From the NCBI GenBank assembly GCA_937863205.1, contig CALMGA010000538.1:7913-20393 (forward strand): a DNA stretch of 12,481 nucleotides, written 5' to 3'. Position numbers and translations under genes: made by a program. Every line of letters starts with the position of its first letter. Position 1 is the first letter of the stretch. Below the pieces are notes generated by a model, which worked only from the letters and a program-made list of their open reading frames with translations, was not told the origin of the DNA and made no database searches. This document shows positions 1-8,837 of this stretch, piece by piece. This stretch comes from an uncultured Beijerinckiaceae bacterium (lineage in GTDB: Bacteria; Pseudomonadota; Alphaproteobacteria; Rhizobiales; Beijerinckiaceae).

Positions 1-41
1 CCAGCCTGCTGGCCAACCCGATGTCGCGGCGGAACATTTCG

Positions 42-575
42 ATGCCCCGGCTTTTCACCGCCCTCGAACTTCCCGAACGGGTCGTCCGCGAACTGACGAT
101 GGTTCGCGGCGGCCTGCCCGGCGCGCGCTGGATCGAGCCCGACGACTACCACGTCACGCTGCGCTTCATCGGCGATGTCGGCTATGCCGACGCCAACGAG
201 GTGCATTCGGTTCTCGAACGCATCCGCCGGCCGTCGTTCAGCCTCACGATGGGCGCCATCGGCATCTTCGGTGACGACCGCCCCCGCGCCATCGTGGCCA
301 CGGTGAAGCCCGTGCCGGCCCTGATCGAGCTGCAGAACGAGCAGGAGCGCCTGCTGCGCCGCATCGGCCTGCCGGCGGAGAAGCGCAAATACGCGCCGCA
401 CGTCACGCTGGCACGGCTGCGGCAGTGCTCGCCGTCGGCCGTCGCCGCTTTCCTGTCGCTGCGCGGCTTCATCGCCGCGCGCGAGTTCACGGTCGACCAC
501 GTCACGTTGTTCTCCGCGCGCGATTCGGTCGGCGGCGGTCCCTACGTGGCGGAAGCCACCTACCCGCTGCTGTGA
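42..575 (+). CDS. thpR: RNA 2',3'-cyclic phosphodiesterase (2'-5' RNA ligase-like, ThpR)
   Basis: A 177-residue member of the 2H phosphoesterase superfamily. Family enzymes hydrolyse 2',3'-cyclic phosphate RNA ends and can catalyse reversible 2'-5' RNA ligation in the cytoplasm. The two signature tetrapeptides are both HVTL, at residues 37-40 and 120-123, each following a short strand (YHVTL, PHVTL). Their histidines form the catalytic pair. A third HVTL at 153-156 begins the usual C-terminal 'LFSAR' strand and is probably not catalytic. The length is normal for the family. I chose the ATG at 42 because MPRLFTALELP is the typical N-terminus; an in-frame ATG at 21 would add seven residues and has no convincing ribosome site. 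The GH3 gene follows after 16 nt on the same strand, so the two may be co-transcribed. The physiological role of the family is poorly defined. Confidence 0.9.
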   Translation: MPRLFTALELPERVVRELTMVRGGLPGARWIEPDDYHVTLRFIGDVGYADANEVHSVLERIRRPSFSLTMGAIGIFGDDRPRAIVATVKPVPALIELQNEQERLLRRIGLPAEKRKYAPHVTLARLRQCSPSAVAAFLSLRGFIAAREFTVDHVTLFSARDSVGGGPYVAEATYPLL

Positions 576-591
576 GCGGGCCTGCGGCTTG

Positions 592-2931
592 ATGCGCCCG
601 CGCGGGTGGATGATCGTCGCGCCGATGCTGGTCGCGACATTGCTGGTCGCGATCCTGCTGATCACGATGCGCGGCCTGACGTCTTCGACCCCGCGGCCGG
701 CTGCCGGTCCGGCGCGCTCCGGCGCGGCAACCCTGGGCGCGACCAAGCTGGGCCTGACCAAGCTGGGCGCGACAACGGAGCCGTGGCGCAACCCGGCCCG
801 GACGCCCGACGAGCGCGCGCGGGCGGCGACGGCGGCGATGACGCGGGACGAGAAGATCGCCCTCGTCCACACCCACGTCGGCATTCCCTGGGGCGGTCGC
901 CCGAAGCCGACGGGGGCGATCGGATCGGCGGCGATCTGGCCGGGCGTGCCGCGCTTGGGCATTCCCGCGCTGCAGGAAGCCGACGGCAGCCTCGGCCTCG
1001 CCAATCCCCTGCACGTCCCGCAGCTCTACGACGTCACCGCGCTGCCGGCGGCGTTGGCCACGGCCGCCACCTTCGACCCAGCCCTGGCCCGCGCCGGCGG
1101 CGCCGTCATCGGCGGGCAGGCGCGGGCGAAAGGCATCGGCATCCTGCTCGCCGGCGGCGCAAACCTCGTGCGCGACCCGCGCGGCGGCCGCACCTTCGAA
1201 TATTTCGGCGAAGACCCGCTGCTGACCGGACGGATGGCCGGCGCCGCCGTGGCCGGCATCGGGACGCGCGGCGTGATCTCCACGCTCAAGCACTTCGCCC
1301 TCAACGACGGCGAGAACGGCCGCACCGTCGCCAACGCCGTCCTGGCCGAGCCGGCGGCGCGCGAATCCGACCTGCTCGCCTTCGAACTGGCCCTGGAGGA
1401 CGGTCGGCCGGGCGCGGTGATGACCGGCTACAACCGTGTCAACGGCACCCATGCCTCGCAAAGCGCGCCGCTTCTGGCGACCCTGAAGAACGATTGGCAC
1501 TTCCCCGGCTTCGCGATGTCGGATTGGGGGGCGACGCATTCCACGGCCGCCGCGGCGCTGGCCGGGCTCGACCAGCAGTCGGGCGAGGAGTTCGACGGCG
1601 CACCCTGGTTCGGAGCCCTGCTCAGCCAGGCACTCGCGAGCGGCGCCGTACCGTTCGGCCGCCTTGACGACATGGTGCGGCGCATCCTGGCGTCGACCTT
1701 CGCGGCCGGCCTCGCCGACGACCCGCCGCGCGCCGGCACCACCTTCGACCGGGAGGCCGATGCCGCCATCGCCCGGCGCATCGCCGCCAGTTCCGTGGTG
1801 CTGCTCAAGAACAAGGCGGATGCGCTACCGCTTCGACCCGGCCTGCGCCGCATCGTGGTGATCGGCGCCCATTCCGACATCGGCGTGCTGTCGGGCGCCG
1901 GCTCCTCGCAGGTCACCCCGCGCGGCTCGCAACCGTTTTCGGCCGAGCAGCCGCGCCAGGCCACCATCGGGATCAAATATTATCACCCGTCCGCTCCGGT
2001 GGATGCGATCGCGCGGCGCGCGCCCGGCGCCAGCGTCGTCTTCGCCAGCGGGGAGGATCACGCCGCCGCAGCCGCCGCGGCACGCGGGGCCGATCAGGTC
2101 ATCGTGTTCGCCGAGCAATGGCTGGCGGAGGCGCGCGATGCGCCAAACCTTCGGCTGCCGGGCGGGCAGGACGATCTCATCGCCGCCGTGGCCGACGCCA
2201 ATCCGCGCACGGCCGTGGTTCTGGAAACCGGCGGCGCCGTCACCATGCCGTGGCTCCCTCGCGTGCCCGCCGTGCTGGAAGCCTGGTATCCCGGCTCGGA
2301 AGGGGCGGAAGCGATCGCCGACGTGCTCTTCGGTACCGTCGACCCGTCGGGGCGGCTGCCGATCACCTTCCCGCAAAGCGAATCCCAGCTTCCCCGCCCG
2401 ACGCTTCCCGCCGCCGACGACAAGACTTCCAGTCCGGGCGGTGCCGACACGGGCGGCTTCGACATCGATTACGACATCGAGGGAGCCGACGTCGGCTACA
2501 GGTGGTTCGCCGGGCGACGGCTGATGCCGCTGTTCCCCTTCGGCTACGGCCTGAGCTACACCCGCTTCCGCTACGCCCTGCCCGAGGTGCGGGTCGACGG
2601 CAGCCTCGTGCGAGCCTCCGTCGAGGTGCGCAACGAGGGCACGCGCGAGGGAACGGACACGCCGCTGTTCTTCGTCGAGCCCGAACCGGCCGAAGCCAAA
2701 GCGGGAAGCTTCGTCAGGCGGCTGGCCGGTTGGACGCGGGTGACCTTGCGTCCCGGCGAAACCCGGCGCGTGCGCGTGGTGATCGACCCGCGCCTCCTCG
2801 CCCGTTTCGATGGCGCCGGACACGGCTGGCGGATCACCGCCGGGCGATACCTGATGTCGGTGCGCCCGGATGCGGTCGCCTCCGGTCCGACCCGCACCTT
2901 CGATCTGGAGGACGCGCTGCTCCCGCCATAA
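592..2931 (+). CDS. Membrane-anchored glycoside hydrolase family 3 protein (beta-glucosidase-like)
   Basis: A 779-residue GH3 enzyme; the family removes terminal beta-linked sugars, usually glucose or xylose, from oligosaccharides or glycosides by a retaining mechanism. Residues 7-27 form one hydrophobic segment after MRPRGW, suggesting a signal anchor or signal peptide and a periplasmic catalytic part. A linker with three LGATK-type repeats (48-62) follows. The N-terminal barrel spans about 75-370 with KHF at 233-235, a Gly-Tyr-Asn stretch at 279-281 and the nucleophile motif MSDW at 309-312 (Asp311). The GH3 C-terminal alpha/beta sandwich covers about 400-650, including LPGGQ (522-526) and WYPGSEG (565-571). 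The acid/base is not certain; Glu513 or a nearby acid is a candidate. A fibronectin III-like domain (about 665-775) ends the protein. Substrate cannot be read from sequence. The ATG at 592 was chosen over TTG 589; ATG 610 is another option, and no strong ribosome site decides it. The gene is convergent with pqqA. Confidence 0.9.
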   Translation: MRPRGWMIVAPMLVATLLVAILLITMRGLTSSTPRPAAGPARSGAATLGATKLGLTKLGATTEPWRNPARTPDERARAATAAMTRDEKIALVHTHVGIPWGGRPKPTGAIGSAAIWPGVPRLGIPALQEADGSLGLANPLHVPQLYDVTALPAALATAATFDPALARAGGAVIGGQARAKGIGILLAGGANLVRDPRGGRTFEYFGEDPLLTGRMAGAAVAGIGTRGVISTLKHFALNDGENGRTVANAVLAEPAARESDLLAFELALEDGRPGAVMTGYNRVNGTHASQSAPLLATLKNDWHFPGFAMSDWGATHSTAAAALAGLDQQSGEEFDGAPWFGALLSQALASGAVPFGRLDDMVRRILASTFAAGLADDPPRAGTTFDREADAAIARRIAASSVVLLKNKADALPLRPGLRRIVVIGAHSDIGVLSGAGSSQVTPRGSQPFSAEQPRQATIGIKYYHPSAPVDAIARRAPGASVVFASGEDHAAAAAAARGADQVIVFAEQWLAEARDAPNLRLPGGQDDLIAAVADANPRTAVVLETGGAVTMPWLPRVPAVLEAWYPGSEGAEAIADVLFGTVDPSGRLPITFPQSESQLPRPTLPAADDKTSSPGGADTGGFDIDYDIEGADVGYRWFAGRRLMPLFPFGYGLSYTRFRYALPEVRVDGSLVRASVEVRNEGTREGTDTPLFFVEPEPAEAKAGSFVRRLAGWTRVTLRPGETRRVRVVIDPRLLARFDGAGHGWRITAGRYLMSVRPDAVASGPTRTFDLEDALLPP
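733..777 (+). repeat. Three 15-nt tandem repeats in the GH3 linker
   Basis: Three consecutive in-frame 15-nt units (733-747, 748-762, 763-777) encode LGATK, LGLTK and LGATT, residues 48-62 of the GH3 protein. Units one and two differ at two positions, and unit three differs at its end. They lie between the membrane segment and the catalytic domain, so they probably lengthen a flexible linker and arose by slippage or unequal crossover. Confidence 0.75.
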
Positions 2932-2987: not shown

Positions 2988-3029
2988 AGCGCAACAGAAG
3001 AAGCGCAACAGAAAAGGCGCAATAAAAAA
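2988..3029. repeat. 14-bp tandem repeat, three copies, running into the pqqA terminator
   Basis: Three abutting 14-bp units start at 2988, 3002 and 3016. They read AGCGCAACAGAAGA, AGCGCAACAGAAAA and GGCGCAATAAAAAA. The third unit supplies the T-tract of the minus-strand terminator at 3028-3052. The array lies between the stop of the GH3 gene and the terminator, is non-coding in both directions as far as I can tell, and is unlike the GC-rich surroundings. Confidence 0.8.
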
Positions 3030-3052
3030 GCGCCCTCGAAACGAGGGCGCTT
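3028..3052 (-). terminator. Intrinsic terminator downstream of pqqA
   Basis: Read on the minus strand, an 11-bp perfect stem (AAGCGCCCTCG, loop TTT, CGAGGGCGCTT) runs straight into TTTTTTATT. This is a textbook Rho-independent terminator, starting 31 nt after the pqqA stop codon. The plus-strand side has only two T residues after the stem, so it is at best a weak terminator for the convergent GH3 gene. Confidence 0.88.
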
Positions 3053-3059
3053 CGCGATC

Positions 3060-3075
3060 CAGACCCGAAGGTCTG
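3060..3075 (-). other. UUCG-tetraloop hairpin between pqqA and its terminator
   Basis: On the minus strand the sequence CAGACC-TTCG-GGTCTG forms a perfect 6-bp stem closed by C(UUCG)G, the exceptionally stable tetraloop. It begins 8 nt after the pqqA stop codon and precedes the terminator hairpin by 7 nt. There is no U-tract behind it, so it is more likely an mRNA-stabilising 3' structure than a terminator. That role is inferred. Confidence 0.7.
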
Positions 3076-3082
3076 TGAGCGA

Positions 3083-3172
3083 CTAGAAGTTCACGTCGAT
3101 GTCGGCCGAGTCGTAGCTCGTGACTTCCATGCCGACGCAGATCTCTTCAACGATCGGGGCAACCCAGTTCAT
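3083..3172 (-). CDS. pqqA: PqqA, precursor peptide of pyrroloquinoline quinone
   Basis: A 29-residue peptide beginning MNWVAPIVEEI. Its core GMEVTSY (14-20) carries the hallmark Glu-x3-Tyr pair, here Glu16 and Tyr20. In the known pathway these two side chains are cross-linked by the radical SAM enzyme PqqE with the chaperone PqqD, then trimmed and oxidised (PqqF/G, PqqB, PqqC) to the redox cofactor PQQ. Length, the N-terminal M-x-W and the acidic C-terminus all fit PqqA, and the peptide resembles those I recall from Methylobacterium. The ATG at 3172 has GGAGAG at 3177-3182, 4 nt upstream of it. No pqqB, C, D or E lies nearby: the gene is followed by a UUCG hairpin and a strong terminator, and preceded 125 nt away by msrA on the same strand. 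It could be an extra pqqA copy or the only one, with the enzymes encoded elsewhere. The only cysteine, Cys12, has no known role. Confidence 0.93.
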   Translation of the reverse strand: MNWVAPIVEEICVGMEVTSYDSADIDVNF

Positions 3173-3176
3173 GTTT

Positions 3177-3182
3177 CTCTCC
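3177..3182 (-). promoter_or_regulatory. Shine-Dalgarno of pqqA
   Basis: GGAGAG on the minus strand, 4 nt before the ATG at 3172. This strong site supports translation of the very short pqqA frame. The rest of the 125-nt gap up to msrA (3183-3297) is more A/T-rich than the flanking genes. It probably holds the pqqA leader and promoter, but I cannot identify a convincing -35/-10 pair. Confidence 0.75.
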
Positions 3183-3297
3183 GCGGCTTTTGTTTGAAGG
3201 TGACCCTTATCTATCTCGAACCGGGAAGAACGCCATTGAGGAACTTCTTAAATTTCCTACTCCCTTTGGGGGATGCCGTTCTCTGCTCCGGCCCGCC

Positions 3298-4050
3298 TCA
3301 GTGGCCGGCCGCCACCAAGGCCGGGCTGGCCTTGAAGTCGGCGGGGAACAGCGACTTCAGCCCCTTCACCTTGGGCATGTCGTTTTCCACGATGTAGGCA
3401 TCGTCGGGATGCTGGGTCAGGTAGTTCTGATGGTAGCCCTCGGCCGGGTAGAAGGCCTGGAAGCTGGACACCTTGGTCACGATCGGCGCGGCGAAGACGT
3501 GGGCCTTGCCGAGCTGCTCGATATAAGCCTTGGCGACCTTCGCCTGCTCGGGCGTCATCGCGAACAGGTCGGTGCGGTATTGCGTGCCCTCGTCGGGACC
3601 CTGGGCATTCAACTTCGTCGGATCGGCCACCACCGAGAAATAGATCTGCAGCAGCTTGCCGTAGCTGACCTGACGGGGATCAAACGTCACCTTCACCGAT
3701 TCGGCATGGCCGGTCATGCCCGAACTCACCACGGGATAGGAAGCGGACGTCCGCGAACCACCGGAATAACCGGACACGGCGCTGGACACGCCCTTGACGT
3801 GCTGGAAGACGCCCTGGACGCCCCAGAAGCAGCCGCCGGCGAACACCGCCGTCTCAGGCTTCGCCGCGTCGCTCACAGCCGCATCGGTCTTGGCCGCGGG
3901 ATTTCCGGACGGCAGGTCCAGGGCCGGCGGCGGCACGATCTTCATGTCGTCGGCCGACGCGCTGCGCGGGGGCAGCAGCAGGGCGGCGGCCCCCACGGCC
4001 GCCGACAGGCCGGCAACCAGGACCAAGGGAATGCGACTGGCGTTTCTCAT
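3298..4050 (-). CDS. msrA: Exported peptide-methionine (S)-S-oxide reductase MsrA
   Basis: A 250-residue MsrA that reduces the S-epimer of methionine sulfoxide in proteins. Residues 1-33 form a Sec signal peptide (hydrophobic 8-26, likely cleavage after Ala-Ser-Ala at 33), so it should act in the periplasm. The catalytic motif GCFW is at 73-76 (Cys74), followed by GYSGG (94-98) and the YHQNY signature (206-210). Cys74 is the only cysteine in the protein. The C-terminal resolving cysteines of E. coli MsrA (Cys198 and Cys206) have no counterpart, so regeneration must use an external thiol or partner. A larger in-frame extension upstream overlaps msrB and was rejected: the ATG at 4050 has GGAGA at 4061-4065 and gives the signal peptide. 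msrB lies 41 nt upstream on the same strand, so the two form an operon. Confidence 0.93.
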   Translation of the reverse strand: MRNASRIPLVLVAGLSAAVGAAALLLPPRSASADDMKIVPPPALDLPSGNPAAKTDAAVSDAAKPETAVFAGGCFWGVQGVFQHVKGVSSAVSGYSGGSRTSASYPVVSSGMTGHAESVKVTFDPRQVSYGKLLQIYFSVVADPTKLNAQGPDEGTQYRTDLFAMTPEQAKVAKAYIEQLGKAHVFAAPIVTKVSSFQAFYPAEGYHQNYLTQHPDDAYIVENDMPKVKGLKSLFPADFKASPALVAAGH

Positions 4051-4091: not shown

Positions 4092-4595
4092 CTATGCCGC
4101 CCGGAACGTCATGGCGACGCCGTTCATGCAGTATCGCAGGCCGGTCGGACGCGGCCCGTCGTCGAACACGTGGCCGAGGTGGCCGCCGCAGTTCGCGCAG
4201 TGGATCTCGGTGCGCTCGAAGCCGAGGGTCGAGTCCTGGCGTTCGCCCACGGCCTTGTCGATGGCCTTGTAAAAGGACGGCCAACCGGTGCCGCTGTCGA
4301 ACTTGGTTTCCGAAGCATAAACCTTTTGGCCGCACCCGGCGCAGGCGAAGACGCCCTTGCGGTGCTCGTCGTTGAGCGGGCTGGTGAAGGCGCGTTCCGT
4401 GCCCTCCTTGCGCAGGACGTCGTATTGCACCGCGGTCAGCCGCTTGCGCCAATCGGCGTCGCTGAACGACACCGGATATTTGCCGGCGGGTTGAGCCATC
4501 GCCCTGTTCTTGCTGCCGAACATCAGGCTGCCAAGCGCGGTGGCGCCAAGCCCGAGACCGGCGGCGGCGGCCATGAAACTACGCCTGTTATCCAT
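4092..4595 (-). CDS. msrB: Tat-exported peptide-methionine (R)-S-oxide reductase MsrB
   Basis: A 167-residue MsrB, which reduces the R-epimer of protein methionine sulfoxide and so complements MsrA. The N-terminus MDNRRSFM followed by a mild hydrophobic stretch (9-26) and Ala-Met-Ala at 32-34 is a twin-arginine signal, suggesting export in folded, metal-loaded form. Zinc ligands are the CxxC pairs Cys85/Cys88 and Cys133/Cys136. The GTGWPSF motif spans 102-108, and the catalytic cysteine is Cys156 in RYCMN. Thr103 occupies the place where many MsrBs have the resolving cysteine (SGCGWPSF), so this is a 1-Cys type. The ATG at 4595 was chosen over one at 4715 because it starts the Tat signal and has AAAGGG about 8 nt upstream. 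It is the first gene of msrB-msrA and diverges from the secreted hypothetical gene. Confidence 0.93.
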   Translation of the reverse strand: MDNRRSFMAAAAGLGLGATALGSLMFGSKNRAMAQPAGKYPVSFSDADWRKRLTAVQYDVLRKEGTERAFTSPLNDEHRKGVFACAGCGQKVYASETKFDSGTGWPSFYKAIDKAVGERQDSTLGFERTEIHCANCGGHLGHVFDDGPRPTGLRYCMNGVAMTFRAA

Positions 4596-4670: not shown

Positions 4671-4700
4671 TTGTCTGTGTCGGCTTGTCCTGTTTATACG
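4671..4700 (+). promoter_or_regulatory. Candidate sigma-70 type promoter for the secreted hypothetical gene
   Basis: TTGTCT (4671-4676) and TATACG (4695-4700) are separated by 18 nt in the 146-nt divergent gap. They would give a leader of about 35 nt before the ATG at 4742. Each box matches the consensus at four of six positions. This is a weak prediction; no equally good pair was found for msrB on the other strand. Confidence 0.3.
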
Positions 4701-4741
4701 TGGCAACCGGGGCAAAAGTTACACAACCGCGGGGCGTGAGA

Positions 4742-5305
4742 ATGGCCGGGACTGGGATCGGGTGGGGCTTCGGCCGATCGGTCGTCGTCGCGGGCTTCGC
4801 CGCAGGAGTCGCCCTGGGCACCTCGGAGGGGCGGGCCGAGCCCCCGCAGCCGGCCTCCGCGCAACCCTCGCTGCCCCAGCCGATCGCCGGCGGGGTGCCG
4901 CTGGCCTCGCCGATCATCGGCGGCGGGCAAGGCAAGCTCGACCAAGCCAAGCCGGACCAAGCTAAACTTGATCGAGCCAAGCCTGATCGAGTCAGGATCG
5001 GTCGAGCCAAAGCACGGCACTTCGCCCGCTACCACGGCCGCATCGCCTCCCATCGCCGCTTCGGCGGGGAGCCGCTGGAGCGTCCCGCACTCGCCGGCGT
5101 CGAGCTGGTCACCCCGATCCCGCATCCGATCCAGCCGCCGCACTTCACGGTTCCGGTGCCGGCCTACCCCTTCGAGAACTTCGTCACCTACTACACCACC
5201 CCGCCGCCGCCGGTGTTCTGCCACCGCGCGCCGCGCGATCCCGATGCGCCCGACCCGCACCTCATCGGCGAGCGTCCGGTGCTGTGCGAAGCCGACAATC
5301 CTTGA
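4742..5305 (+). CDS. Secreted proline-rich protein with KLDQA-type pentapeptide repeats, function unknown
   Basis: I do not recognise a family. The 187-residue product has a probable signal peptide (hydrophobic 13-26, cleavage after Gly-Arg-Ala at 32). A Pro/Gln/Ala-rich stretch follows, then five tandem 5-residue repeats at 65-89, then a basic segment rich in His and Arg (about 90-108). The C-terminal part (115-187) has many prolines, a YYTTPPPP run, and the only two cysteines of the mature chain, Cys160 and Cys182, which could form a disulfide. This composition suggests a largely disordered periplasmic or surface protein. The ATG at 4742 gives the signal peptide; GTG at 4736 would add two residues, and a more distant ATG at 4685 places the hydrophobic segment too far in. 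The gene diverges from msrB and converges on the phospholipid acyltransferase gene. Confidence 0.65.
   Translation: MAGTGIGWGFGRSVVVAGFAAGVALGTSEGRAEPPQPASAQPSLPQPIAGGVPLASPIIGGGQGKLDQAKPDQAKLDRAKPDRVRIGRAKARHFARYHGRIASHRRFGGEPLERPALAGVELVTPIPHPIQPPHFTVPVPAYPFENFVTYYTTPPPPVFCHRAPRDPDAPDPHLIGERPVLCEADNP
4934..5008 (+). repeat. Five 15-nt tandem repeats coding for K-[L/P]-D-[Q/R]-A
   Basis: Units at 4934, 4949, 4964, 4979 and 4994 encode KLDQA, KPDQA, KLDRA, KPDRV and RIGRA. Leu and Pro alternate and Gln changes to Arg half way, so the array looks like a 10-residue unit duplicated and then decayed. The last copy is the most diverged. Change is mostly by single bases and the frame is kept. Confidence 0.85.
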
Positions 5306-5342: not shown

Positions 5343-8300
5343 TCAGGCGGCGGCCGTGGCCTCGTCGCGCTCCTCGTCGGGCTCCTCCGCGTGAGGCTCG
5401 GCTGAGCCGCGCTCCTCGATCAGGCGCTTCACCCCGGCGAAGTCCACCTTGCCGCTGCCGAGCAACGGGATGGTGGCGACCGTCGCGACTTCGGCGGGCA
5501 CGACGAGGTCGGACGCGCCGCGCTTCTTGGCGAAGCTCGCGAACTCGCCGCGGCTGGCCCCTTCGCGCTGGGTGATGAGCACGATGCGTTCGCCCTTGCG
5601 CGCGTCGGGCAGGGTCGCCGCCGCCGAGACCGCGTCCGGCCACAGGTCGGCGGCCAGCGCCTCGATCTGGGCGAGCGAGATCATTTCGCCGCCGATCTTG
5701 GCGAAGCGCTTGGCGCGTCCCTTGATCGAGATGAAGCCGCGGCCGTCGATCGCCACGATGTCGCCGGTGTCGTGCCAGCCCTCGGCGGGGGGAACGAGCA
5801 CGCCGGGGCGGTCGTCCTTGAGGTAGCCGAGCATGGTGTTGGGGCCGCGCACGACGAGGCGGCCGCCCTCGTCGATGCCGTCCACCGGCTCCAGCCGGAC
5901 CTCCCTGCCCGGCGCGAGGCGGCCGACGCTGCCGTTCTTGTTGAACATTTCCGTGTTCACCGACAGCAGCGGCCCCATCTCCGTGATGCCGTAGCCTTCC
6001 AGCACGCGCAGGCCGAACTTCTCCATGTACACGGCGCGGGTGGACTCCTTGACCGGCTCGGCGCCGGCCCACAGGCAGCGCAGCGAGCGGAAGTCGTAGG
6101 GGTTGGCCGCCCGGGCGTAGCCGGCGAGGAAGGTGTCGGTGCCGAGCAGGATGGTGGCGTTCGACCCGTAGATCAGCTCGGGGATGATGCGGTAGTGCAG
6201 CGGCGAGGGGTAGAGGTAGACCTTCACGCCGAACACCATCGGCACCACCGTGCCGATGGTCAGGCCGAAGGCGTGGAACATCGGCAGCGTGTTGAACATG
6301 GTGTCGTCGCGGCCGAAGTGCGCCACGGCGCGCGCCTGGGCGGCGTTGGAGAGCATGTTGCGGTGGCTGAGCACCACGCCCTTGGGCGTGCCTTCCGAGC
6401 CCGAGGTGAACAGCACCGCGGCGGGATTGTCGCCGCGGCGCGCAACCAGCGGCTTGCGCCAGCCGAGCAGCCCCTCGATCTTGTCGCGCCGGCCGACGGT
6501 GGCGCGGATGTCTTCGAGGTAGACGATCCTGAACGAGCGGGCGAGTTCGGCGACGAGCTTGTCCAGCTTGCCCTTCTCGATGAAGGCGCGCGAGGTGACG
6601 ATCGTGTCGAAGCCGGCGGCGGTGCCGGCCGAGCGGATGTTGGCCGCCCCGGCCGAGAAGTTGACCATCGCCGCGACCCGGCCGGCCGACATCAGCCCCA
6701 TCAGCGACACCAGGCAGCCGACCGAGGTGGGCAGCATCAGGCCGACGGTGCCGCCGATCGGCGCGAGGTCGGCCAACTTGGCGCCGAGCACCCGCGCGCC
6801 GATCAGGGCGCGCTTGTAGGTCATCGGGCCCGACACCGGATCCTCGAAGGCGTGGTGGTTGGGGCCGTAGGCTTCCGCCGCGTCGATCAGCGCCTGATGC
6901 ACGGTGCGGTCGGTCGGGGTGGTGGCGAAGATCATCCTCGACATGATGGAATAGAGCGCGGCGCCGGCCGCCTGCCGGCGGGCGCGGCCGGTCAGCTCGT
7001 CGGGCAGGATGATGCGCTGCGGCGGCATCACCGTGACGGTGATCTTCTTGAACCAGGGGCGACGGACCTGGGCGTTCGTCAGGTAGGAGAAGCGGGTCGC
7101 GTCCGCGCCCTCGATGCGGACGGGCACCACCGGCACGCCGGTCTTGGCCGCGATCAGGCCGGAGCCGTCGTAGACCTTCATCAGGCTGCCGGTGCGGGTG
7201 ATGCGGCCCTCGGGGAAGATCACCAGGGTGGCGCCGTTGCGCACGGCCTGGATGAGGAGGCGGGTTGCGAGCGGGCGGGTCGGATCGAGCGGCAGGGCGT
7301 TGAGGTAGCCGACGAGCGGCTTCATCCACCATTTCTTCGCCCAGCCGCTGTCGATGGCGAAGACGGGATCCTGATCGAGCACGGTGAAGGCGAGGGGCGC
7401 GTCGAGCAGGCTGACGTGGTTGAGGGCGATGATCGCTTTGGGACCGGCGGCGGCGAGGTTTTCGAGGCCGCGCACTTCCAGCCGGTAGACGATGCGAAAC
7501 AGCATCGCGCTGAGGTCGCGCAGGGGGTTGGTCGGCAGGGTGCGGAAGATCCACACGGCGGCGGCGAAGGCGCCGACGCCGAGAAGGGCGAAAATGGCCG
7601 AGATCGACAGGTGCAGCACCTGGATCACCAGCGCCACCGCCACCGTGCCGCCGGCGATGAACAGGGCGGAGAGCACGTTCACGGCGGCGATCACGCGGGC
7701 CCGGCGATCGGCCGGCGCCCACGCCTGGACGGCGGCGAAGGAGGGCACGATGAACAGCCCGCCGGCCATCGTCAGCACCAGCATGTCGACGGCAAGGCGC
7801 CAGGCATGCGGCTGGGCGAGGAAGGCGGCGACGCCGAAGCCGGCACCGGCACTAACCTGGGATCCCGCCCCATGCAACGTCCAGGCGAGATCGAGGCAGG
7901 ACAGTCCGATGACCACGGCGGCGATGGGCGCCGGCAGGGTCAGGATGCGCCCGCCAACCAGCCAGGAAGCGAGGCCGGAGCCGAGCGCGATGCCGACCGC
8001 GAAGACGGCGGAATACAGCGAAACCACGATCTCCGTGCCGCCGAGCAGCGTTTTCACGATGGGCGCGAGCAGGCCGAAGGAGATGGCACCCACGAGCCAG
8101 AACAGCGACACCACGATGCCGCCGCGCCAAAGGCGGGCGTCGCGCCACAGCTCGCGCATCAGTTCGCCGGTCGAGCGCAGCACGTTGCGGTCGACGGTGA
8201 GGTGGGGTGCCCCCTCGCCGACCCGTGGGATGAAGCGGCTCGCGCCGTAGCTGATCGCGGCGAACACCAGCGTCAGCACCACGAACCAGATGGGATTGTT

Positions 8301-8837
8301 GCGGCCCTCGCCCGACGACAAAGCGGCGACGAAGGTGCCGGCGATGATGGCGATAAACGTCGCGCCCTCCACCAGCGCGTTGCCGGCGGCGAGCCTTTCG
8401 CGCGGCAGCAGGTCGGGCAGGATGCCGTACTTCACCGGCCCGAACAGCGCCGACAGGACGCCGAACAGGGCGAGCGCGACGAAGAGCAGGGGCAGCGAGG
8501 GCAGAAGAAAGCCGGCGGCGGCGATTGCCACGCCGACGAACTCCACGAGCTTGAGGCGCTGCGCCACCACCGCCTTGTCGTGGCGGTCGGCCCATTGGCC
8601 GCCCAGCGCCGACAGCACGAAGGAAGGGGCAATAAAGATCGCGGTGGCGATCTGGATCAGCATCTGCGACTGGCCGGCAGCAAGGCGATACAGCAGGATG
8701 AAGCCGAGCGCGGCCTTGATGTAGGAATCGTTGAAGGCGGAAAAGAACTGGCACCAGAACAGCGGCGCGAAGCGGCGGCTCCGCAGCAGGTGTTCGCTGG
8801 CCGGCTTGGCTATGGCGTCGCGCGTCGGATCACCCAT
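5343..8837 (-). CDS. aas: LplT-PlsC-AMP-ligase fusion: acyl-[ACP]-phospholipid O-acyltransferase
   Basis: A 1164-residue inner-membrane fusion of three activities. Residues 15-435 are an MFS transporter with about 11-12 helices, like LplT, which flips lysophospholipids inward. Residues 445-605 are a PlsC-type acyltransferase with NHVSLLD (473-479) and FPEGR (541-545). Residues 640-1140 are an AMP-forming acyl-ACP synthetase with TSGSEGTPKG (811-820), YGITEMG (949-955), DTGD (1023-1026) and the likely catalytic Lys1130 in SGK. In E. coli these functions are split between LplT and Aas. Together they retrieve and re-acylate lysophospholipids, for example after lipoprotein acylation or membrane damage. 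All key motifs are intact. An acidic tail (1147-1164) is added. ATG 8837 has AAAGGG about 8 nt upstream and begins just before the first helix. The divergent TetR gene and two palindromes upstream suggest repression by that regulator. The exact acyl donor and substrate are inferred. Confidence 0.93.
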   Translation of the reverse strand: MGDPTRDAIAKPASEHLLRSRRFAPLFWCQFFSAFNDSYIKAALGFILLYRLAAGQSQMLIQIATAIFIAPSFVLSALGGQWADRHDKAVVAQRLKLVEFVGVAIAAAGFLLPSLPLLFVALALFGVLSALFGPVKYGILPDLLPRERLAAGNALVEGATFIAIIAGTFVAALSSGEGRNNPIWFVVLTLVFAAISYGASRFIPRVGEGAPHLTVDRNVLRSTGELMRELWRDARLWRGGIVVSLFWLVGAISFGLLAPIVKTLLGGTEIVVSLYSAVFAVGIALGSGLASWLVGGRILTLPAPIAAVVIGLSCLDLAWTLHGAGSQVSAGAGFGVAAFLAQPHAWRLAVDMLVLTMAGGLFIVPSFAAVQAWAPADRRARVIAAVNVLSALFIAGGTVAVALVIQVLHLSISAIFALLGVGAFAAAVWIFRTLPTNPLRDLSAMLFRIVYRLEVRGLENLAAAGPKAIIALNHVSLLDAPLAFTVLDQDPVFAIDSGWAKKWWMKPLVGYLNALPLDPTRPLATRLLIQAVRNGATLVIFPEGRITRTGSLMKVYDGSGLIAAKTGVPVVPVRIEGADATRFSYLTNAQVRRPWFKKITVTVMPPQRIILPDELTGRARRQAAGAALYSIMSRMIFATTPTDRTVHQALIDAAEAYGPNHHAFEDPVSGPMTYKRALIGARVLGAKLADLAPIGGTVGLMLPTSVGCLVSLMGLMSAGRVAAMVNFSAGAANIRSAGTAAGFDTIVTSRAFIEKGKLDKLVAELARSFRIVYLEDIRATVGRRDKIEGLLGWRKPLVARRGDNPAAVLFTSGSEGTPKGVVLSHRNMLSNAAQARAVAHFGRDDTMFNTLPMFHAFGLTIGTVVPMVFGVKVYLYPSPLHYRIIPELIYGSNATILLGTDTFLAGYARAANPYDFRSLRCLWAGAEPVKESTRAVYMEKFGLRVLEGYGITEMGPLLSVNTEMFNKNGSVGRLAPGREVRLEPVDGIDEGGRLVVRGPNTMLGYLKDDRPGVLVPPAEGWHDTGDIVAIDGRGFISIKGRAKRFAKIGGEMISLAQIEALAADLWPDAVSAAATLPDARKGERIVLITQREGASRGEFASFAKKRGASDLVVPAEVATVATIPLLGSGKVDFAGVKRLIEERGSAEPHAEEPDEERDEATAAA

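Follow-up and report, generated by a model that had tools for sequence, protein, structure and literature searches.

Multiple pqqA genes have reportedly been described by Ge et al. (2015). The pathway from PqqA to PQQ is well known and established in general (PMC12997753), and stand-alone, multiple and caller-missed pqqA genes are already on record in the portions of four papers drawn on here (PMC3615186, PMC9851590, PMC11317620, PMC10848612). Methylosinus trichosporium OB3b carries a single distant pqqA that was missed by annotation and lies apart from pqqBCDE and pqqFG; its expression was given as 11857 and 13927 units, versus 166 and 161 for pqqE (PMC3615186). Methylorubrum extorquens AM1 has two orphan genes, pqqA2 and pqqA3, outside the pqq operon. 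They showed a fourfold response to the neodymium source where most PQQ genes showed none, and a role in lanthanide uptake was proposed (PMC11317620). An AM1 pqqA mutant still made PQQ, and the presence of two pqqA homologues was offered as the reason (PMC6520949). Hyphomicrobium has five pqqA genes, three of them separately located, and the separate pqqA3 was among the two most highly expressed (PMC9851590). The Methylophilaceae listed in PMC4109929, with Methylovorus MP688 as one such member of the group, carry 3 to 12 copies, and in M. aquaticum 22A pqqA is duplicated at the operon and expressed unlike pqqBCDE (PMC4392154, PMC5784242). In Beijerinckiaceae bacterium RH AL1, expression of three pqqA genes fell, to a different extent for each, when neodymium or a mix of lanthanides was supplied, with log2 fold changes of -0.68 for RHAL1_02672 (neodymium only), -2.68 and -2.60 for RHAL1_02989, and -1.43 and -1.91 for RHAL1_01618 (PMC10848612).

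The window analyzed here is a 12,481-nucleotide stretch from an uncultured Beijerinckiaceae bacterium (GCA_937863205.1, contig CALMGA010000538.1, positions 7,913 to 20,393). An initial annotation had placed in it a 29-codon pqqA with a Glu16-x3-Tyr20 pair, between a GH3 gene and msrBA, and had given no strand. The open reading frame is on the minus strand at 3172-3083, with an ATG at 3172 and a TAG that ends at 3083, and has 29 codons. Its 29-residue peptide scored above the cut-offs of the Pfam profile PF08042 PqqA (37.3 bits, E 2.6e-9, cut-off 21.1) and the NCBIfam equivalog TIGR02107 (35.2 bits, E 7.6e-9, cut-off 20). The Glu16-x3-Tyr20 pair, whose residues become PQQ, is present in the translation, and Pfam and NCBIfam profiles confirmed the neighbors on both sides. 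Relatives were chosen with a protein of the window that fuses MFS, acyltransferase and AMP-ligase parts, which was searched in 149 genomes taken from a larger group, all of the G478 family. The nearest proteins were those of G692 (83% and 78% over two segments), followed by that of G629 (69%). The nearest genus is represented by four genomes (G692, G664, G714, and G629), and the host itself by the window only. The features around the gene are as follows.

21..575, plus strand: ligT-type RNA 2',3'-cyclic phosphodiesterase (TIGR02258); in G629, too, the pqqA counterpart has ligT as its second downstream gene
589..2931, plus strand: GH3 glycosidase, convergent, downstream neighbor of pqqA (PF00933, PF01915)
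3027..3053, minus strand: putative terminator, a hairpin with a T run behind it (terminator scan and folding)
3083..3172, minus strand: pqqA, 29 codons, MNWVAPIVEEICVGMEVTSYDSADIDVNF (Pfam and NCBIfam profiles; conserved in G692, G664, G714, and G629)
3177..3182, minus strand: ribosome site GGAGAG (read directly; same sequence in G692)
3221..3275, minus strand: conserved 55-nt block, putative promoter or regulatory site of pqqA, ending 48 nt before the ATG
3298..4050, minus strand: msrA, upstream neighbor (PF01625, TIGR00401; G692 has it at the matching position, the G629 stretch compared does not)
4092..4592, minus strand: msrB (PF01641, TIGR00357)

By its sequence, the window gene is a true, intact PqqA gene. 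Conservation of the frame and of the Glu/Tyr pair in relatives, which had been named as a test of the assignment, was found: Glu16 and Tyr20 are retained in PqqA copies of all four nearest-genus genomes. The window peptide differs from that of G692 at 2 of 29 residues, and six further codons are changed synonymously. Dispersed copies can decay. Two of the three in G522 look decayed, one without Glu16 and one with an internal stop (L114 5610-5687, L115 5668-5742), so not every dispersed copy is active. It is nonetheless very improbable that the window gene is such a relic, no longer used. It is intact, retains Glu16 and Tyr20, and is flanked by a ribosome site and the conserved block on one side and by a terminator on the other; 6 of its 8 codon changes relative to G692 are synonymous. 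We give similarly little credence to the idea that the peptide or its product serves an end other than an enzyme cofactor, such as the lanthanide uptake suggested for orphan PqqA. The neodymium response of pqqA2 and pqqA3 in AM1 speaks in its favor; however, uptake is purely a proposal in the portion of that paper used here (PMC11317620), nothing in the window suggests metal uptake, and both Glu16 and Tyr20 are kept, as PQQ requires.

The ribosome site and terminator that the initial annotation had attributed to the gene were both recovered. GGAGAG ends 4 nt ahead of the ATG. On the other side, a terminator-like hairpin of 12 pairs plus a T run lies at 3053-3027 on the minus strand. Folding of the stretch 3' of the stop gave a z of -4.2, with none of 200 shuffles equally good; the loose terminator scan was by itself not significant (1 found versus 0.8 expected). 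A hairpin plus T run was also seen by eye 3' of the pqqA counterparts in G692 and G629. Rfam matches at 3019-3075 (ncS54, 26 bits vs 43; ctRNA_p42d, 18 bits vs 50) were rejected, terminator hairpins being present there. A promoter scan upstream of the window pqqA gave no consensus match.

Gene order in G692 is that of the window, with a cystathionine-type enzyme, TetR, acyltransferase, msrB, msrA, and pqqA, and the contig stops 144 bases past pqqA. G629 has three pqqA genes, one operonic copy and two orphans, and its orphan 2 is likely the counterpart of the window pqqA. Upstream of orphan 2, a gene for a putative zinc metallopeptidase stands in place of msrA. Downstream, a DUF1176 gene followed by ligT takes the place of the GH3 gene followed by ligT. 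For the GH3 protein (589-2931, plus strand), 38 relatives were found in genome_contigs, at most 53% identical and spread over many phyla, mostly in Sphingomonas; this protein was therefore set aside for choosing relatives in favor of the fusion protein. The GH3 gene may have come to lie beside pqqA only late. The names RH AL1 (a Beijerinckiaceae bacterium) and Beijerinckia sp. L45 occur among relatives of the window MsrA, and the host is called Beijerinckiaceae-type on this basis. Farther upstream, positions 5343-8837 (minus strand) encode the 1164-aa fusion protein used above, in which an MFS transporter is joined to a glycerophosphate-type acyltransferase and to an AMP-binding ligase. Full-length relatives of this fusion are common in the family surveyed. 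Positions 4685-5305 (plus strand) hold a 206-aa open reading frame without a Pfam family, 54% identical to an equally placed stretch of G692.

A 55-nt block begins about 105 nt before the ATG in the window, in G692, and at orphan 2 of G629. The window block is identical to that of G692 at 51 of 55 positions and to that of orphan 2 at 42 of 55, and 41 of 55 are invariant in all three. The block lies 48-50 nt from the ATG in each case, across a spacer that aligns poorly (33 of 51 columns at best). It stays with pqqA though the upstream gene is msrA in two of the loci and the putative metallopeptidase in the third. Because the distance to pqqA is fixed while the upstream gene changes, we infer that the block is a control region of pqqA. 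The same comparison bears on whether pqqA is the tail of an msrB-msrA-pqqA transcript, which would tie the PQQ precursor to methionine-sulfoxide repair. These genes share a strand and, in the window and G692, an order; the gap between msrA and pqqA is 125 nt, and no terminator was found in it. Such a transcript is nevertheless unlikely to be the source of PqqA, as the G629 counterpart has the putative metallopeptidase and not msrA upstream, yet keeps the block. Read-through from msrA may occur in addition to transcription from a promoter of its own.

The block was not found before the other pqqA copies compared by motif, by BLAST or by eye among 20 copies. These searches are insensitive: a 16-base motif with two mismatches and BLAST both miss the G629 block, which was seen by eye, so diverged blocks before other pqqA copies may be missed. 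In a search for a wider set of genes under the block, a first block pattern gave matches in 4 of 8 genomes and none for a reversed-pattern control. The matches in G692 and G629 lie before orphan pqqA genes, and that in G714, with one mismatch, lies before a peroxiredoxin gene. The sole exact match in G301 (L102 8831-8848, minus strand) precedes a 372-aa open reading frame by 142 nt, at a distance of 2.6 kb from an orphan pqqA, and may be a related site or a coincidence. Assignment of this frame by eye to a LuxR-type regulator was withdrawn, as it has no Pfam family. A second pattern matched in 4 of 16 genomes (G692 and G629 exactly, G301 and G736 with one mismatch). Its reversed control gave 3 matches, so the one-mismatch matches are no better than chance. 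The portion of PMC12997753 used here gives no binding motif.

In the family survey, pqqE was above cut-off in 77 of 149 genomes. At E values up to 0.1, 74 of these 77 had a pqqA, against 0 of 72 among the genomes that lack pqqE; pqqA copies therefore go with the enzymes. The peptide served as the working query, since PF08042 used against genomes matched none of 18 genomes and none of 14 controls and is uninformative on absence. Dispersed pqqA is common in the family. Unlinked copies are overcounted through contig breaks in the numbers that follow. The 116 pqqA copies comprised 64 within 10 kb of pqqE, 20 farther away on the same contig, and 32 on another contig. Per genome (n=77), 40 had linked copies only, 21 had linked and unlinked copies, 13 had unlinked copies only, and in 3 none was found. 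Some pqqA copy was not seen within 10 kb of pqqE in 34 of 77 pqqE-bearing genomes, partly through such breaks. Likely cases are G641, whose pqqE runs off its contig, and G714, whose three copies at contig ends count as unlinked here and as operonic in the repeat count below. Six genomes (G724, G669, G703, G735, G679, and G522) carry pqqA on the pqqE contig but more than 10 kb from pqqE, and the 11-kb stretches around their pqqE showed nothing that reads like PqqA. For the window, the description of pqqA as far from any other pqq gene holds within the window itself: no second pqq protein was found among the proteins scanned over 9.3 kb upstream and 3.1 kb downstream. All four nearest-genus genomes have pqqE and pqqC above cut-off, the pqqC of G714 being partial at a contig end, and all four have PQQ alcohol dehydrogenases above cut-off. 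The host presumably carries pqqBCDE as well.

Upstream regions of operonic copies were compared with those of dispersed ones. A TCTTA-N6-TCTTA repeat or close form lies within 150 nt upstream of 11 of 16 operonic copies and 0 of 28 dispersed copies (25 plus 3 of G522), in a count of mutually related copies made after the repeat had been noticed. The operonic set holds 13 of the 64 linked copies plus the three G714 copies taken as operonic, and the dispersed set, from 15 genomes and the window, holds the window gene and 27 of the 52 copies not so linked. Five of the 16 operonic copies are without the repeat, which shuffled sequences yield by chance at a rate of about 0.001 per copy. Repeats of 11 nt are a usual feature of OmpR/PhoB-type sites. 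A response-regulator-like C-terminus, recognized by a short expression, ends 154-183 nt before the first operonic pqqA in G664, G714, G478, G559, G301, G451, and G736; none was detected before the operonic pqqA of G629, G500, G702, G715, or G608. Operonic pqqA is in tandem in G664 (two copies, L094 5821-6375) and G714 (three copies, L095 5821-6800), with copies spaced about 445-465 bp apart and separate TCTTA repeats for each. The pattern in the family is thus of operonic copies that often bear TCTTA and, in seven genomes, lie near a response-regulator gene, and of examined dispersed copies that do not. The upstream region of the window pqqA differs from those of the operonic copies, and this fits independent dosage control. 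The initial suggestion of dosage control apart from the enzymes gains from this difference; the promoter scan, which gave no match, speaks against it.

In G692, the pqqBCDE cluster is without pqqA and lies on a contig other than that of the orphan, which is the sole pqqA found in that fragmented 3.4-Mb draft. A regulator gene with PF00072 and PF00486 sits immediately ahead of pqqB with no pqqA in between, and the TCTTA-type repeat is absent from this contig. The simplest reading of these sequences is that pqqA was lost from the G692 operon. The window pqqA could likewise be the sole pqqA of its genome, an unlinked copy that supplies all PqqA. This stronger form of the preferred explanation is possible, if somewhat short of probable. 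Precedents are the distant single pqqA of OB3b, which has pqqBCDE (PMC3615186), and the 13 of 77 family genomes without pqqA within 10 kb of pqqE, six of which show this on one contig. Against it, more copies may be missing from the G692 draft, G629 has an operonic copy besides its two orphans, and G664 and G714 have their tandem copies at the operon. It is put forward tentatively, as a rather doubtful extension, that the branch formed by the window and G692 has a single pqqA, which moved out of the pqq operon to a place where it has a conserved control block to itself; the operon lies behind a response-regulator gene of the OmpR type. PqqA would then respond to another signal than PqqB-E do, with the orphan as the main PQQ source.

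The preferred reading, which we hold with good confidence, is that the window gene belongs to an alphaproteobacterium of Beijerinckiaceae type and is a working pqqA of the dispersed (orphan) kind, presumably with its own short transcript and a precursor supply independent of the enzymes. It is probably separately controlled. The short, separately terminated transcript would yield the 29-residue PqqA peptide, in which PqqE with PqqD would cross-link Glu16 and Tyr20. PQQ for PQQ-dependent alcohol dehydrogenases would then be completed by proteases and by PqqB/PqqC, whose genes lie elsewhere. Because each PQQ costs one peptide, a promoter separate from that of the operon would let PqqA supply be set independently of the enzymes, which is the presumed benefit. 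For the same reason, PQQ for methanol- and lanthanide-dependent dehydrogenases can be limited by how many pqqA genes there are and how they are controlled. A strain should not be called PQQ-incapable until a search has been made for 29-codon genes outside the operon.

Among known systems, the window block is unlike the upstream regions of four genomes (G478, G559, G301, and G451) that we take, from PqqA sequence, to be Methylobacterium-like. The window pqqA resembles that of OB3b in being small and without pqqBCDE beside it, and differs in that OB3b belongs to another genus (PMC3615186). It resembles the AM1 orphans in lying outside the pqq operon, and those copies respond differently from the enzymes (PMC11317620, PMC6520949). 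Hyphomicrobium and Methylophilaceae have several pqqA genes, some separate, with expression that differs between copies, but their families differ from that of the host (PMC9851590, PMC4109929). RH AL1 is of the host's family, and would be of the nearest genus too if it is G629. The main reading does not depend on this identity, which gene order makes somewhat more likely than not: three pqqA genes, an M16 peptidase pair at the expected place of pqqFG, and two PQQ alcohol dehydrogenases above cut-off in G629 match the RH AL1 locus tags in order and rough spacing, as far as the portions of the RH AL1 papers used here list them (PMC10848612, PMC8316094). If G629 is RH AL1, the counterpart of the window gene would be RHAL1_02672, the least responsive of the three, and the operonic copy would be RHAL1_02989, the most responsive. 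Their differing responses to neodymium would then fit separate control of orphan and operonic pqqA.
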